A stretch of 64,000 nt of DNA from the NCBI GenBank assembly GCA_004102645.1, contig CP034928.1:1480153-1544152 (forward strand), written 5' to 3'. Below are positions 23,577 to 31,716 of the stretch, in pieces. This DNA comes from Candidatus Bipolaricaulis sibiricus (GTDB taxonomy: Bacteria; Bipolaricaulota; Bipolaricaulia; Bipolaricaulales; Bipolaricaulaceae). The position numbers and the translations under genes were made by a program. Under the pieces are notes generated by a model that saw nothing but the letters and a program-made list of their open reading frames with translations, ran no database searches and was not told the origin of the DNA. Each line of letters opens with the position of its first letter. Positions within the stretch are counted from its first letter, which is position 1.

Positions 23577-23605
23577 ATCGTACAGCTCCCGTCTTGCGCA
23601 GTCAA
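23577..23605 (-). promoter_or_regulatory. promoter of surface-protein operon
   Basis: On the minus strand TTGACT (23600-23605), a 17-nt spacer and TACGAT (23577-23582). A leader of about 80 nt follows; it contains GAACG-N4-CGTTC and two ribosome sites (AAGGGAGG and AAGGAGGT). Confidence 0.75.
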
Positions 23606-23689
23606 GCACGTATCGCTCTCCGCTCGCACGACAACGGCCCGTATGGTAGCCCTCCTCCGCTCCCCGGTCAAATCGGGGCACCAGTTCCG

Positions 23690-23983
23690 CGGTCTGTGGA
23701 CCGTTCTCCGCGGTCCGGCGACCGTTGTCCGCGATCTGGGTCCGTGATCCGGGGACAGCAACGTCGCACCCGGTGTGCGATGGCCCTTCCCGCGGCGTCG
23801 CCACCGATCGGCAACGCCCGCGGCCCGCTGCGACCCGATGTCCCATCTTCGGCCTCACCGTACCCCTGCCCGTCCCCCCCGCTGAAGCCGCGTCGTCCAG
23901 ACGGGGCCGGACGTGTGTCCGTAATCCGTGGTCCGTTGGACAGGGTTCGCGGCCCGTCGTCCGCGGTCCGTGGCCCGGGTGCC
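23690..23983. repeat. heptanucleotide-period degenerate tandem repeats
   Basis: Two blocks (about 23690-23757 and 23918-23983) read as successive 7-mers close to GTCCGTG: for example GTCTGTG, GACCGTT, CTCCGCG, GTCCGGC, GACCGTT, GTCCGCG. The sequence between them is unremarkable. Related blocks occur at 15365-15397 and 53917-54030. Confidence 0.65.
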
Positions 23984-24473
23984 GTAGCGTCGGACCCTGT
24001 GTCCGACGGCCTTGCCGGCCCCGCGAAACCCAACGGCCGTCGGGGATGAACCCCGACGCAAACCCGAAAGGCCGTCGGGGATGAACCCCGACGCTACGAA
24101 CCCGGAAGGCCGTCGGGGATAAACCCCGACGCTACGAAGGCAGGGTTCCGTAGCGTCGGACCCTGTGTGCGACGGCCTTGCCGGCCCCGCCCGCACGAAA
24201 CCCAAACGGCCGTCGGGGATAAACCCCGGCCCCGCGAAACCCAACGGCCGTCGGGGATAAACCCCGACGCTACGAAGGCAGGGTTCCGTAGCGCCGCACC
24301 CTGCGTGCGACGAACGCCGCGTGGTTCCGTAGCGTCGCAGCTTGTCTGCGACGGCCTTGCCCGATCGCCGCGTTCGAACGGCGGGCGGGGATGAACCCCG
24401 ACGCTACGAAACCGAACGGCAAACCCAACGGCGACGAACCCGAAAGGCCGTCGGGGATGAACCCCGACGCTAC
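23984..24473. repeat. REP-like hairpin array 4
   Basis: About eleven units. It opens with a GAC-stem unit on the plus strand and continues with GGG-stem units on the minus strand. One unit is a hybrid (GAC left stem, GTG right stem), leaving a mismatch, and one has a GCG substitution in the outer stem. Confidence 0.88.
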
Positions 24474-24558
24474 GACGAACCCGGACGGCCGGAAGGCCGA
24501 CCCACCCCACGCTGACCCGTCGGAATCGCAACCCGTCGCGAACACGCACAGTAGCCGC

Positions 24559-25314
24559 TTACCGCACCCCGCGTAGGATCATCTCGACCGCGCTGTAGGT
24601 GAGCACGACCGCGAACAGCCGCCGCAGCCAGACGGCGGGAAGCCGGGTGGCCACAAGCGGCCCCAGCTGGGACCCGACGAGTGCCCCAGCCATGAGGGGA
24701 AGCGCAAGATCCCAGTGGGTGTTCCCGGCCAGGGTGTGGCGCAGGGTGGCCACGGCGGCGGTGGGAATCATCACGAACAGGCTCGTCGCCACGGCGGGCA
24801 CGATGTCGAGCCCAAGCAGGGTCAGCGCCGGAACCATGATCACCCCCCCGCCGATTCCGAACAGCCCGGACGCGGTGCCGGCCACCAGGCCGATCGCGCC
24901 CCCGGCCAGAATGCCAATCCCCATCCGGCCCCGGCCCCGGAACAGCTCCTTCGGCTGCTTGCCGAGGAGCAGCACCCCCGCCGGGTAGAGGAGGAACACC
25001 CCGAACACGAGCGCCAACGTGCCCGAGGCGATCCGGCCGGAGATCCACGGCCCCAGCCACCCTCCGCCCACCGCACCGGGGACCAATGCCAGCCCCACCC
25101 GCCAGTTCGTGGCCCCGCTCCGCCGGTAGGCGAGCGTGCTCGACAGACCAGTGATCGCCACCGCGGCGATGCTCGTTCCCACCGCCTCCTGCGAGGTGGA
25201 CACCAACCGGGCGAGCAGCAACAGCGGGACCATGAAGATGCCCCCGCCGATCCCGAGCATCGAACCCATCGCTCCCACTGCGACTCCGGCCAGCGCGAGA
25301 AGAAAGTACGTCAT
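24559..25314 (-). CDS. TauE/SafE-family anion exporter
   Basis: 251-residue integral membrane protein of the TauE/SafE (DUF81) family, which exports sulfite, sulfoacetate or related anions. Two repeated halves each open with the Gly signature: VGAMGSMLGIGGGIFMVPLL and AGTASGLFGIGGGVIMVPAL. About eight helices are predicted. No sulfur-metabolism genes are adjacent, so the substrate is open. There is no ribosome site: TACACT ends 8 nt before the ATG. The longer frame to 25551 lacks a usable start and is rejected. Confidence 0.9.
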   Translation of the reverse strand: MTYFLLALAGVAVGAMGSMLGIGGGIFMVPLLLLARLVSTSQEAVGTSIAAVAITGLSSTLAYRRSGATNWRVGLALVPGAVGGGWLGPWISGRIASGTLALVFGVFLLYPAGVLLLGKQPKELFRGRGRMGIGILAGGAIGLVAGTASGLFGIGGGVIMVPALTLLGLDIVPAVATSLFVMIPTAAVATLRHTLAGNTHWDLALPLMAGALVGSQLGPLVATRLPAVWLRRLFAVVLTYSAVEMILRGVR

Positions 25315-25322
25315 GGCCCCGG

Positions 25323-25328
25323 AGTGTA
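25323..25328 (-). promoter_or_regulatory. -10 box directly upstream of TauE-family gene
   Basis: TACACT on the minus strand, 8 nt before the ATG; only CCGGGGCC lies between, which is unlikely to serve as a ribosome site at zero spacing. Confidence 0.5.
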
Positions 25329-25636
25329 ACCGGGCCCGGTCGAGCCGACGCACGCCCACACGGCAGCGCACGGCCTCGCCCGATCGGACATCGGCGGCCC
25401 GGAGGCCCTGGGTGGGACGAGCGGCCCCGCCGGGACCGCCGGTGGGCCACCGCCCACGGCCGGCAGACGGACGGAGGCGGCCGCCAGCCGCTCCGGCCAC
25501 CGCGCGGGCCAACCCGGAGACCACGGCCAAGGCCACCACGAAGAACCACACCGGTCACGCGGGCCCGAGGTGCGAAACACCGATCCGATCTGCCCTCGGG
25601 CAGAAGGACGCCGACCGCCGACACATCCCCCAAAGG
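25329..25636. other. intergenic stretch, no gene
   Basis: About 300 bp of G+C-rich sequence between the TauE-family gene and the first mini-gene cassette. Open frames lack ribosome sites and recognisable products, and no REP unit is present. Confidence 0.5.
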
Positions 25637-25652
25637 CGGGACAGATGTCCCG
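25637..25652 (+). promoter_or_regulatory. palindrome upstream of mini-gene 1 promoter
   Basis: CGGGAC-AGAT-GTCCCG, a perfect 6-bp inverted repeat. Its core ACAGATGTCCC begins 22 nt before the -35; the second cassette has ACAAATGTCCC at the same distance (25954-25964). A shared activator or repressor site is the likely reading. Confidence 0.6.
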
Positions 25653-25662
25653 ACATCACGAT

Positions 25663-25691
25663 TTGACTTCTGTTGCGAGCAGTCCTATCCT
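25663..25691 (+). promoter_or_regulatory. promoter of mini-gene 1
   Basis: TTGACT (25663-25668), a 17-nt spacer and TATCCT (25686-25691). The leader after it has the hairpin CTGCTCC-N4-GGGGCAG and then GAGGAGGTG. Confidence 0.85.
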
Positions 25692-25741
25692 CCGCTCAAC
25701 TGCTCCCTCTGGGGCAGCCACGAGGAGGTGCGGTGCTGACC

Positions 25742-25783
25742 ATGAAGAAGGACAAGCCGAAGCCGGGCACGCCGAAGAAGTAG
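25742..25783 (+). CDS. mini-gene 1: 13-residue Lys/Pro-rich peptide
   Basis: ATG to TAG encodes MKKDKPKPGTPKK (six Lys, three Pro, one Asp; net charge about +5). GAGGAGG lies about 13 nt upstream of the ATG, closer to a GTG at 25732, so the spacing is long. A second copy at 26055-26096 is identical at every base, as are the seven or so bases before each ATG, while sequences outside have diverged. Each copy has its own promoter, leader hairpin and terminator and no larger gene follows. Not recognised; it could be a secreted or intracellular basic peptide, a leader peptide, or the body of a small RNA. Confidence 0.6.
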   Translation: MKKDKPKPGTPKK

Positions 25784-25790
25784 TTCGGGC

Positions 25791-25824
25791 CAGCGTTCTC
25801 TGCATGACCGATGCGGGAACGCTG
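25791..25824 (+). other. structured 3' region of mini-gene 1 transcript
   Basis: CAGCGTTC pairs with GAACGCTG around an inner GCAT/ATGC stem, beginning 8 nt after the mini-gene stop. Cassette 2 has a different hairpin in this place, so the fold rather than the sequence seems common. Confidence 0.5.
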
Positions 25825-25851
25825 ACGAGATGCAGCACGAAGTGTAATCGC

Positions 25852-25874
25852 GGGGACGGGAGCGGCCCGTCCCC
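25852..25874 (+). terminator. terminator of mini-gene 1
   Basis: GGGGACGGG-N5-CCCGTCCCC, a 9-bp perfect stem followed by GTCCTTGTATTGTT. The transcript would be about 180 nt long. Confidence 0.75.
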
Positions 25875-25975
25875 GTCCTTGTATTGTTCCACTGAGCACG
25901 AAAACTGTGCGCCTGCATGCTGCAGCCGAGGCGCGAGCGTGCCGGTGAGTGTAACAAATGTCCCTTCAGCTGCTG

Positions 25976-26004
25976 TTGACTTCCGCGGAGCGCCGTCCTA
26001 TGCT
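25976..26004 (+). promoter_or_regulatory. promoter of mini-gene 2
   Basis: TTGACT (25976-25981), a 17-nt spacer and TATGCT (25999-26004), aligning base for base in layout with the first cassette. The leader hairpin is ACTGCCC-N6-GGGCGGT, followed by GAGGAGGTG. Confidence 0.85.
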
Positions 26005-26054
26005 GCGCTCAACTGCCCCTAGTAGGGCGGTACCGAGGAGGTGTGGTGCTGACC

Positions 26055-26096
26055 ATGAAGAAGGACAAGCCGAAGCCGGGCACGCCGAAGAAGTAG
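26055..26096 (+). CDS. mini-gene 2: second copy of the 13-residue peptide
   Basis: Encodes exactly the same MKKDKPKPGTPKK with identical codons. The promoter spacer, leader stem and whole 3' region differ from copy 1, so the duplication is not new, yet the coding bases have not drifted. That pattern argues for strong constraint or repeated gene conversion. Open frames on the opposite strand across both copies are shadows. No homologous larger protein is recognised. Confidence 0.6.
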   Translation: MKKDKPKPGTPKK

Positions 26097-26167
26097 GATT
26101 GTTCATACGATGTGAGTGAACCCATGGTGCCCGGCCGGTACGGTCGGGCGCGGAACGAGCTGAAGAC

Positions 26168-26190
26168 GGGGGGCGGGAATCCCGCCCCCC
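26168..26190 (+). terminator. terminator of mini-gene 2
   Basis: GGGGGGCGGG-AAT-CCCGCCCCCC, a 10-bp perfect stem followed by TTGTTTGG. Confidence 0.75.
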
Positions 26191-26224
26191 TTGTTTGGGG
26201 CTGCCCCCGGAGAGCCCCCTCTCC

Positions 26225-26555
26225 CGTCGGGGATGAACCCCGACGCCACCCCGAACGGCCGTCGGGGATAAACCCCGACGCTACGACGGCGCGGTTCCGT
26301 AGCGTCGCACCCTGTGTGCGACGAACGCCGCGCGGTTCCGTAGCGTCGCACCCTGTGTGCGACGGCCTTACCGGTAGCGGCGGACCCCGTGTCCGACGCC
26401 GGATCGTCGCGTTCGAAAGGCCGTCGGGGATAAACCCCGACGCCACCCCCAAAAGCCGTCGGGGATAAACCCCGACGCTACGACGGCGCGGTTCCGTAGC
26501 GTCGCACCCTGTGTGCGACGAACGCCGCGTGGTTCCGTAGCGTCGCACCCTGCGT
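26225..26555. repeat. REP-like hairpin array 5
   Basis: About nine units. CAC-stem units read on the plus strand and GGG-stem units on the minus strand; one unit has CGGCGGAC against GTCCGACG. The last unit is truncated after CGTCGCACCCTGCGTCC, 26 nt before the -10 box of the patatin gene. Confidence 0.88.
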
Positions 26556-26580
26556 CCTCGGGTCGGCAGCCTCTCCCGGC

Positions 26581-26586
26581 TAGAAT
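26581..26586 (+). promoter_or_regulatory. -10 box directly upstream of patatin start
   Basis: TAGAAT ends 7 nt before the ATG. No ribosome site fits into CGCACAC, so a leaderless transcript is likely. Confidence 0.6.
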
Positions 26587-26593
26587 CGCACAC

Positions 26594-27436
26594 ATGAAGC
26601 GGGTGACGCGGCTGGGCGTCGCACTGGGCGGCGGCGGGGCGCGGGGGCTGGCCCACCTCGGCGTCCTGATCCAGCTCGCGGAGGCCGGCGTGCGCCCCGA
26701 GTTCGTGGCCGGCACGAGCATGGGGGCGATCGTTGGAGCAGCGTACAGCGTGGGCCAGGACCTTCCCAAGCTCGTTCGGGTGCTCGAACACCTCGACCTG
26801 GCGAGGATCTTCGGGGTTCCCGAGAGCTACGACCGCGTGCTGGGGCAGACGCTCGCCGAGTCGCTGTGGGAGAGGCTCCGCCAGAAGGCATGGTGGGAGG
26901 AGGGCTCGCCCCGGCTATCCCGGCTCCTGGAGTTCCTCAAGTTGTTCACGAAGGGCATGTGGTTCGAAGACCTCGAAGTGCCGTTCACAGCCGTGGCCGC
27001 GGACCTGGCGACGGGCGAGGAGGTTCGCATCAGCGAAGGTGCCGTCCATCACGGCGTTGCAGCGAGTGCGGCGCTCCCTGGCGTGTTCGGGCCGGTGCAG
27101 TGGCGGAAGCGGTACCTCGTGGACGGCGGACTCGTGAACAACCTGCCGGTGGACGTCGTGGCCGCCATGGGTGCGCGAACGGTCCTTGCGGTGAACGTGG
27201 GGGCCGCCCTCGGTCCGGTTCCGAAGACGCTCGTGGGGGTCGCGCTGCGGGCCCAGGAGATCACGGGCCGCGAGCTCGTGCGGGTGAAGCTCGAGGTCGC
27301 CCGCGCCCAGCTCGGCCCCCGGTTGGTGGTCATCCACCCCGACGTCGACGCGATCGGTCTCCTCGAGTTCGACCGGATCGAGGACGCCGTGGTCGCCGGT
27401 CGCGTCGCGGCCCGATCGGCGTTGTCGTTCCTGTGA
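26594..27436 (+). CDS. patatin-like phospholipase (RssA type)
   Basis: 280-residue serine lipid acyl hydrolase of the bacterial patatin group. The oxyanion loop LGGGGARGLAHLG (11-23), the nucleophile S42 in AGTSMGAIVGA and the catalytic Asp D177 in LVDGGLVNNLPVD form the Ser-Asp dyad. No signal peptide or helix anchor is visible, so it probably acts on the cytoplasmic membrane face. The upstream frame to 26513 reads REP sequence and is rejected. It stands alone between REP arrays 5 and 6, which have opposite polarity. Confidence 0.92.
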   Translation: MKRVTRLGVALGGGGARGLAHLGVLIQLAEAGVRPEFVAGTSMGAIVGAAYSVGQDLPKLVRVLEHLDLARIFGVPESYDRVLGQTLAESLWERLRQKAWWEEGSPRLSRLLEFLKLFTKGMWFEDLEVPFTAVAADLATGEEVRISEGAVHHGVAASAALPGVFGPVQWRKRYLVDGGLVNNLPVDVVAAMGARTVLAVNVGAALGPVPKTLVGVALRAQEITGRELVRVKLEVARAQLGPRLVVIHPDVDAIGLLEFDRIEDAVVAGRVAARSALSFL

Positions 27437-27466
27437 CGTTGTGCGGAGGCAACGTCGGGGTTCGGA

Positions 27467-28173
27467 GGCCGTCGCAGACAAGCTGCGACGCTACGGAACC
27501 CTGCCTTCGTAGCGTCGGGGTTTATCCCCGACGGCCGTTGGGTTTTCGTAGCGTCGGGGTTCATCCCCGACGGCCTTTCGAACGCGACGGTCGGGTAAGG
27601 CCGTCGCAGACAAGCTGCGACGCTACAGGGTCCGACGCTACTACGGAACCCTGCCGTTGTAGCGTCGGGCTTCATGCCCGACGGCCTTTCGGGTTCGTGG
27701 GGGCGGGGTTCATCCCCGACGGCCGTTCGATCGCGACGGTCGGGCAAGGCCGTCGCAGACAAGCTGCGACGCTACGGAACCCCGCCGTCGTAGCGTCGGG
27801 GTTCATCCCCGACGGCCTTCCGGGTTTGCGTCGGGGTTCATCCCCGACGCCGGTTCGGCGCCGACGGTCGGGTAAGGCCGTCGCAGACAAGCTGCGACGC
27901 TACAGGGTCCGACGCTACGGAACCCTGCCGTCGTAGCGTCGGGGTTCATCCCCGACGGCCTTTCGGGTTTGCGTCGGGGTTTATCCCCGACGCCGGTTCG
28001 TCGGCGACGATCGGGCAAGGCCGTCGCAGACAAGCTGCGACGCTACAGGGTGCGACGCTACGGAACCACGCCGTCGTAGCGTCGGGGTTTATCCCCGACG
28101 GCCTTCCGGGTTTGCGTCGGGGGTTATCCCCGACGGCCTTTCGGGTTCGTGGGGGCGGGGTTCATCCCCGACA
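27467..28173. repeat. REP-like hairpin array 6 (inverted polarity)
   Basis: About sixteen units plus several half units. Here GGG-stem units read on the plus strand and CAG-stem units on the minus strand, the reverse of arrays 1-5. One unit carries a GGC stem (loop TTCAT). Half units ending in AGGGTCCGACGCTAC lie next to complete ones and look like recombination scars. Confidence 0.9.
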
Positions 28174-30943: not shown

Positions 30944-31099
30944 CTACTCGTCCTCGGCCTCGTCCACTGCGTCTTGGACCTTGTCCACGAGGTCCTCAAG
31001 CCGTTCCAGGGCCGACTCCAGCTCCTCGTGGAGCTGACCGAGCTCGGTGAGGAGCGGCTTGAGCTTGTCCACAAGGTCCTTCTTCGTCACGTACGCCAT
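30944..31099 (-). CDS. 51-residue acidic coiled-coil protein
   Basis: MAYVTKKDLVDKLKPLLTEL and then QLHEELESALERLEDLVDKV, ending QDAVDEAEDE. The heptad spacing of Leu and Val and the dense Glu/Asp/Lys pattern predict one long amphipathic helix, probably dimerising. AAAGGAGGTGG lies 4 nt before the ATG, one of the best ribosome sites in the window. It is too short for common length cut-offs. Function unknown. Confidence 0.75.
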   Translation of the reverse strand: MAYVTKKDLVDKLKPLLTELGQLHEELESALERLEDLVDKVQDAVDEAEDE

Positions 31100-31170
31100 C
31101 GGCCACCTCCTTTCGGGCCGATTCTACGGCCTAGCAGGCGCTTTCCGCCACCAAACCTGCGGCGCACGTT

Positions 31171-31716
31171 CGTCGCACACGGGGTGCGACGCTACGGGTA
31201 AGGCCGTCGCAGACAAGCTGCGACGCTACGGAACCGCGCGGCGTTCGTCGCACACAGGGTGCGACGCTACGGAACCACGCCGTTGTAGCGTCGGGGTTTA
31301 TCCCCGACGGCCGTTGGGTTTTCGTAGCGTCGGGGTTCATCCCCGACGGCCTTTCCGTCGTCGGCGATCGTGCGGCGGACACAGGTTCCGCCGCTACGGG
31401 TAAGGCCGTCGCACACAGGGTGCGACGCTACGGAACCCTGCCGTTGTAGCGGCGGGGTTTATCCCCGACGGCCGTTGGGTTTTCGTAGCGTCGGGGTTCA
31501 TCCCCGACGCCCGTTCGGCGCCGTTCGGGGTAGCGTCGGGGTTTATCCCCGACGGCCGTTGGGTTTTCGTAGCGTCGGGGTTTATCCCCGACGGCCTTTC
31601 CGTCGTCGGCGATCGTGCGGCGGACACAGGTTCCGCCGCTACGGGTAAGGCCGTCGCACACAGGGTGCGACGCTACGGAACCGCGCGGCGTTCGTCGCAC
31701 ACAGGGTGCGACGCCA
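31171..31716. repeat. REP-like hairpin array 7 (inverted polarity)
   Basis: About fifteen units with GGG-stem units on the plus strand and CAC- or CAG-stem units on the minus strand. A further stem type appears twice: CGGCGGA against TTCCGCCG with loop region ACACAGG, in which even the outer stem has changed on both sides (CGG/CCG for CGT/ACG). Confidence 0.9.

Follow-up and report, generated by a model that had tools for sequence, protein, structure and literature searches.

A candidate family of lysine- and proline-rich microprotein genes in the Bipolaricaulaceae

We find that two tandem cassettes in the genome of Candidatus Bipolaricaulis sibiricus, a single contig of 1.70 Mb, belong to what appears to be a real and apparently undescribed microprotein gene family. 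This conclusion is well supported by comparison among relatives: when the matches were read one by one, intact Lys/Pro-rich frames were present in 28 of 40 Bipolaricaulaceae genomes and in 8 of 13 genera. The family, the selection on its peptide, its RNA structures, its promoter layout, and its synteny all rest on sequence. As to function, we lean, at a little under even confidence, towards free-standing genes for very short, strongly cationic, highly expressed microproteins that would act on polyanions.

Cassette layout in the window

Positions refer to the window, the whole stretch of 64,000 nucleotides that was analysed. The two cassettes form a 143-nt direct repeat with a spacing of 313 and an identity of 81%, and sit between the genes for a TauE/SafE family exporter and a patatin-like phospholipase. 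Each begins with an upstream element, followed by TTGACT-N17-TATNCT and a 5′ hairpin; a strong Shine-Dalgarno sequence then precedes the frame MKKDKPKPGTPKK, after which come a 3′ hairpin and a terminator-like stem. Every part listed by the initial annotation, which had described two tandem cassettes for one 13-residue peptide, is present. The frame is 42 nt long, is identical in copies 1 and 2, and encodes a fully hydrophilic peptide of 46% Lys and 23% Pro.

24559-25311, minus strand: TauE/SafE family exporter gene, divergent neighbour, conserved at the tauE-side locus
25638-25651, plus strand: copy 1 upstream palindrome GGGACAGATGTCCC, 14 bp, ending 11 nt before the -35
25663-25691, plus strand: copy 1 promoter TTGACT-N17-TATCCT (promoter scan)
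25700-25717, plus strand: copy 1 5′ hairpin CTGCTCC/GGGGCAG, starting about 8 nt past the -10, covarying across genera
25722-25730, plus strand: copy 1 Shine-Dalgarno GAGGAGGTG (sequence reading)
25733-25838, plus strand: possible long-range helix of GTGCTG (25733-25738) with CAGCAC (25833-25838), frame inside (pairing)
25742-25783, plus strand: copy 1 frame MKKDKPKPGTPKK (conservation, synonymous bias)
25791-25824, plus strand: copy 1 3′ hairpin CAGCGTTC...GAACGCTG (two-sided changes among first copies)
25850-25876, plus strand: copy 1 terminator-like stem (same scan as promoters)
25951-25964, plus strand: copy 2 upstream element GTAACAAATGTCCC, one side of the palindrome degraded
25976-26004, plus strand: copy 2 promoter TTGACT-N17-TATGCT (promoter scan)
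26012-26031, plus strand: copy 2 5′ hairpin ACTGCCC/GGGCGGT (fold, covariation)
26035-26043, plus strand: copy 2 Shine-Dalgarno GAGGAGGTG (sequence reading)
26055-26096, plus strand: copy 2 frame MKKDKPKPGTPKK (conservation)
26127-26151, plus strand: copy 2 3′ hairpin GTGCCCGGCCG/CGGTCGGGCGC (fold)
26168-26190, plus strand: copy 2 terminator-like stem (same scan as promoters)
26594-27436, plus strand: patatin-like phospholipase gene, downstream neighbour, on a varying side in relatives

A scan of 3 kb found two sigma70-like promoters, one per cassette, and no others, against 0.1 expected by chance. In 36 of 38 cassettes (relatives included) we could locate the promoter hexamers, the leader hairpin, and the ribosome site; relatives thus keep the promoter and ribosome-binding site of their own that mark a microprotein gene. 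The stems at the cassette ends are strong; to call them perfect terminators, as had been done, overstates them because their T tracts are interrupted.

The upstream element had been given as ACARATGTCCC. It is present in both cassettes, but is more correctly a 14-bp palindrome in copy 1 that has become one-sided in copy 2. It reads GGGAC-N4-GTCCC in genus g5 and a number of first copies and is one-sided in later ones; its 5-4-5 symmetry recalls CRP/FNR-type sites. The element with a -35 at 8-14 nt occurs at exactly two sites in the window's own genome, both at the window cassettes. A regulator shared by both cassettes is therefore possible given the element's fixed distance and its two sites, and GGGACANATGTCCC is a putative regulator-binding sequence. 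In relatives (L188, L207, L194, L055), promoters of other genes, among them a possible S-layer-domain gene and one that is rhodanese-like, also have GGGACNNATGTCCC or a near variant of this palindrome in front of them, which may hint at a wider regulon.

Two further observations concern the surrounding DNA. Just 5′ of copy 1, at 25589-25606, a CTGCCCTCGGGCAG hairpin may be the relic of a lost third cassette. Dispersed palindromic repeats of the GTCGGGGATAAACCCCGAC and GTAGCGTCGCACCCTGTGTGCGACG types fill the intergenic stretches 23600-24560, 26224-26560, 27480-28033, and 31050-31700, and create spurious long frames (RPSGINPDAT).

From Shine-Dalgarno to stop codon the two window copies are identical at 61 of 62 nt, whereas the match falls to about 33-70% in the element region, the spacer of the promoter, the leader hairpin, and the 3′ part. 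This pattern is best read as a gene-conversion tract; in sister species the peptide encoded by the first copy differs from that of the second. The identity of the coding bases had been offered as a sign of a selected peptide. The identity itself is observed, but since gene conversion probably explains it better, it is no evidence of selection, and the case for a selected peptide stands on other evidence.

Conservation and selection across the family

A first covariance model was built from seven cassettes, which match it by construction, all other matches being independent. In most genomes of the same genus it detected tandem cassettes next to tauE, two or three in number and far above background, and it gave weaker matches in other genera. 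A second, family-wide model matched in 33 of the 40 family genomes before the matches were read; weak matches in g13, G018, and some others were dropped for having no peptide frame or for lying inside other genes. The search of related genomes proposed by the initial annotation thus finds a cassette family conserved across genera and not unique to the window. An exact DNA pattern with strict spacing gave no match across the genome contigs because start spacing and codons vary. Additionally, the second-locus peptide pattern gave no match when 60 genomes from the phylum's other families were searched, and some Bipolaricaulaceae genera have no detectable copies.

Cassettes are found at two main loci. 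The first (T) adjoins tauE in 16 of the loci examined and is tandem in the window genus; in several species the patatin gene lies on the opposite side of tauE, the cassette still being next to tauE. The second (S) lies 3′ of malQ or malQ-glyS and 5′ of a lipoprotein gene. In the window's own genome this cassette follows glyS at 745331-745485 (L075:4332-4486) and encodes MKEKKAEKPKQPKKPCGCC, and the corresponding peptide in g12 is MLLKEKKPESPKQPKKPCGK. A second-locus form with a Cys near the C-terminus (KPKQPKKPCG) was read in 20 genomes. A further form (MGPKKPKDPKKPKGK, MGGPKKPKAPNKPKAK, and relatives) was found in four genomes of g4, g6, and g11, at loci without tauE in the flank examined. 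Family frames are mostly 13-23 residues long, with an additional H1-like form of 37-48 residues. The latter is a histone-H1-tail-like chain (MAAKAKTVKPKATAKAPAKAKAAAKPKTTAK...) and fills a paralogous slot under the same leader as the first member of three-member tandem arrays in G001, G002, and G010 (first cassettes at L024:9368, L023:9398-9543, and L026:6815).

Between species, closely related frames show 17 synonymous and 6 replacement changes, where about 20% synonymous would be expected, and the MDKKDKPKPQPGKPK group shows 4 and 0. The binomial p for the synonymous excess is 4e-8 at an expectation of 20% and 2e-4 at 35%, values that are indicative since the counts are minimal events over small, hand-chosen groups. 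The peptides stay Lys/Pro-rich despite changes in sequence and in-frame length (MKKDKPKPAQPKK, MDKKDKPKPGKPKK, MDKKDKPKPQPGKPK, MLLKEKKPKQPGQPGKPSK, MGPKKPKDPKKPKGK, MKEKKAEKPKQPKKPCGCC), with 31-54% Lys/Arg, a net charge of +4 to +7, and no hydrophobic stretch. Length changes keep the frame, at 13 versus 15 residues in G004a and G007a and from 37 to 48 in the H1-like form. The substitutions, which the initial annotation had suggested checking, thus favor synonymous sites, and the peptide is under purifying selection. Together, conservation across genera, mostly synonymous change, and in-frame length changes bear out its proposal of an undescribed small gene. A broken frame with a kept fold, which the initial annotation would have counted against the peptide, was seen in only a single decayed extra copy (G011, L025:10180-10261), which has lost both start and stop, as might be expected of a redundant copy.

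RNA structures and the LysW-like neighbour

The RNA structures of the cassettes are constrained too. Each whole transcript has a more stable fold than its dinucleotide shuffles (z of -4.0 for copy 1 and -2.6 for copy 2). Across 42 cassettes the 5′ hairpin is paired in 94% of cells, 6 of its 7 pairs show two-sided changes, and its covariation score lies above that of all 500 shuffles; the alignment was fitted to the tested structure, and slid versions score lower. When the two window copies alone are compared, the changes in this hairpin that the initial annotation read as compensating (T-A to T-G, T-G to C-G) each alter a single side of the pair; two-sided changes appear only when relatives are included. 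The 3′ hairpin of first copies has two-sided changes in 8 of 14 pairs. Since the 5′ and 3′ hairpins both covary, the structured-RNA part of the earlier dual-function suggestion is supported. The GTGCTG/CAGCAC helix around the frame is paired in 97% of cells, but it is almost invariant and thus weak evidence, so that this possible long-range pairing is only a lead. In an Rfam search of the window only a tRNA passed the gathering score, and the cassettes match no Rfam family.

These structures could mean that the RNA itself is the product, with a structured transcript of about 185 nt acting in a dual-function or mainly regulatory way, translation of the frame accompanying or modulating it, and the start-to-3′ helix possibly switching translation. 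The covariation of the 5′ hairpin across genera and of the 3′ hairpin in first copies, where the GTGCTG/CAGCAC pairing is also kept, fits such a role. We nevertheless consider it unlikely: substitutions in the frame are mostly synonymous, the helix that would act as the switch is almost invariant, Rfam holds no counterpart, and the frame survives in second copies, at the second locus, and in genera without a terminator after the frame, where the 3′ structures differ completely.

The initial annotation had also stated that no larger gene follows the frame. This is true in the window, where terminator-like stems end both copies and no gene comes directly after, but not in three other genera, where a LysW-like zinc ribbon gene follows the peptide: g5 (G015, G025), g12 (G030, G032, G036), and g8 (G026), at L065:1993-2166 and in L063, L067, L076, L048, and L248. 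The encoded protein passes PF21344 (45 bits, cut-off 27) and stays under the cut-off of TIGR01206, the NCBIfam LysW model (37.6 bits against 53.2). It resembles the LysW amino-group carrier protein but lies outside a lysine operon and lacks the C-terminal EDWGE, ending instead in DQRDDLY, DEDEY, and similar sequences; in the G026 homologue an EDWGS is internal, not terminal, and a true LysW with EDWGE is encoded elsewhere in that genome. No LysW-like gene was found in the 12 genomes of the window genus, and the second-locus peptides have no such neighbour.

In g12, a few to about 20 nt separate the peptide stop from the next start (about 10 nt in G036). No terminator or antiterminator lies between the two genes in g12, and the g5 hairpin there has no T tract. 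Because the LysW-like gene follows without an attenuator, lysine attenuation is unlikely, and the pair more probably forms a small operon. In some genera a LysW-like gene lies close to this very short, Lys-rich frame, as would suit an attenuator leader peptide that once sensed lysyl-tRNA and is now stranded in the window. We judge this extremely unlikely, given the missing attenuator structures, a downstream protein that lacks the tail of the true LysW present elsewhere in g8, and selection that keeps Pro, Gly, and Asp besides Lys. Furthermore, the peptide gene is free-standing in most genera, that of the window included.

The same gene order could instead reflect a partnership: the peptide would be encoded first in an operon of two genes and would bind the acidic LysW-like protein or modulate it, and the window genus would have kept the peptide after losing the partner. 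The direct succession in g5, g8, and g12 and the tight spacing in G036 speak for this. It is rather improbable, since all 12 same-genus genomes lack the partner and yet have multiplied the peptide, and no partner accompanies the second-locus peptides.

Proposed role and comparison with known systems

Our preferred reading remains a polycation that acts on polyanions. The promoter of each cassette is near-consensus, its ribosome-binding site is strong, and a terminator-like stem closes it; this points to abundant expression, which we infer also from the hairpin at the presumed 5′ end, the compact message, and the multiple copies. The hairpin should protect the mRNA, as 5′ stem-loops stabilise bacterial mRNAs (review PMC7509114), and tandem copies would add dosage. 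The peptide would be translated, is expected to be disordered, and would act in trans by binding ribosomal or other RNA, DNA, or polyphosphate. Polyanion binding is the likeliest role because the peptides are cationic and non-hydrophobic and an H1-tail-like member stands under the same leader; this chain is the best hint of such binding. Composition by itself is no proof of a binding target, the C-terminal Cys of the second-locus form is not accounted for by a simple polycation role, and the 5′ and 3′ structures may be conserved beyond what plain mRNA protection needs.

A broader version of this reading is possible but doubtful: a new class of polycationic microproteins, in which structured, often tandem minigenes at two loci would supply large amounts of 13-23-residue Lys/Pro peptides as general counter-ions for RNA, DNA, or polyphosphate, the H1-like form being a derivative. 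If this is true, few known protein genes that are both free-standing and conserved would be shorter.

Other roles for a short peptide fit less well. A secreted or intercellular peptide, either signal or antimicrobial, could be expected to be short, cationic, and proline-rich and to have its own promoter. This is very unlikely here, as the peptides have no signal sequence or hydrophobic face and are conserved across genera instead of diversifying; of dedicated exporter or immunity genes, only that for the TauE-family exporter is kept with them, and the second locus lacks it. A type I toxin of a toxin-antitoxin pair is hardly credible. The small frame, the tandem copies, and the structured mRNA with possible 5′-3′ pairing are reminiscent of one, but the fully hydrophilic peptide is no membrane peptide, and a consensus scan of both strands of 24500-27500, a weak kind of scan, found no antisense promoter.

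Genes of 13 codons escape standard gene finders and family models and are normally overlooked, and few are known with demonstrated conservation, a free-standing layout, and selection on the peptide. With two loci, 8 genera, tandem copies, and one H1-like derivative, this family offers a clean comparative case for the minimum length of a selected protein gene and for how its mRNA is built. The candidate phylum Bipolaricaulota gains a gene family for which a biochemical prediction can be put to the test.

Several known systems resemble these genes in part. The small basic ribosomal peptide bTHX of Thermus is likewise a short, Lys-rich basic peptide, but it is longer and different in sequence. 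The GMSC small-protein catalogue takes frames of 30 nt or more (PMC11364881), and catalogues of this type in principle cover frames of this size; a prior unannotated listing is possible. Searches of Pfam and NCBIfam models gave no match for the members of 20-23 residues. Similar in length to the window peptide is peTrpL of Sinorhizobium meliloti, a 14-residue leader peptide documented to act in trans in ribonucleoprotein complexes (PMC7298713); it derives from an attenuator, whereas the window cassettes are free-standing, and the sequences are unrelated. In contrast to the histone-H1-like proteins AlgP and Hc2, our peptides are mostly of 13-23 residues, have no folded domain, and match no family model, and the 48-residue H1-like form has no sequence match in Pfam, NCBIfam, or PDB. 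Both groups are nonetheless Lys/Pro/Ala-rich disordered polycations, and the 37-48-residue paralogue of the arrays resembles the KPAA/KAAKP tails of AlgP and Hc2; AlgP, which carries an H1-like tail of KPAA repeats, is a DNA-binding protein that is associated with granules of polyphosphate (PMC9239181).
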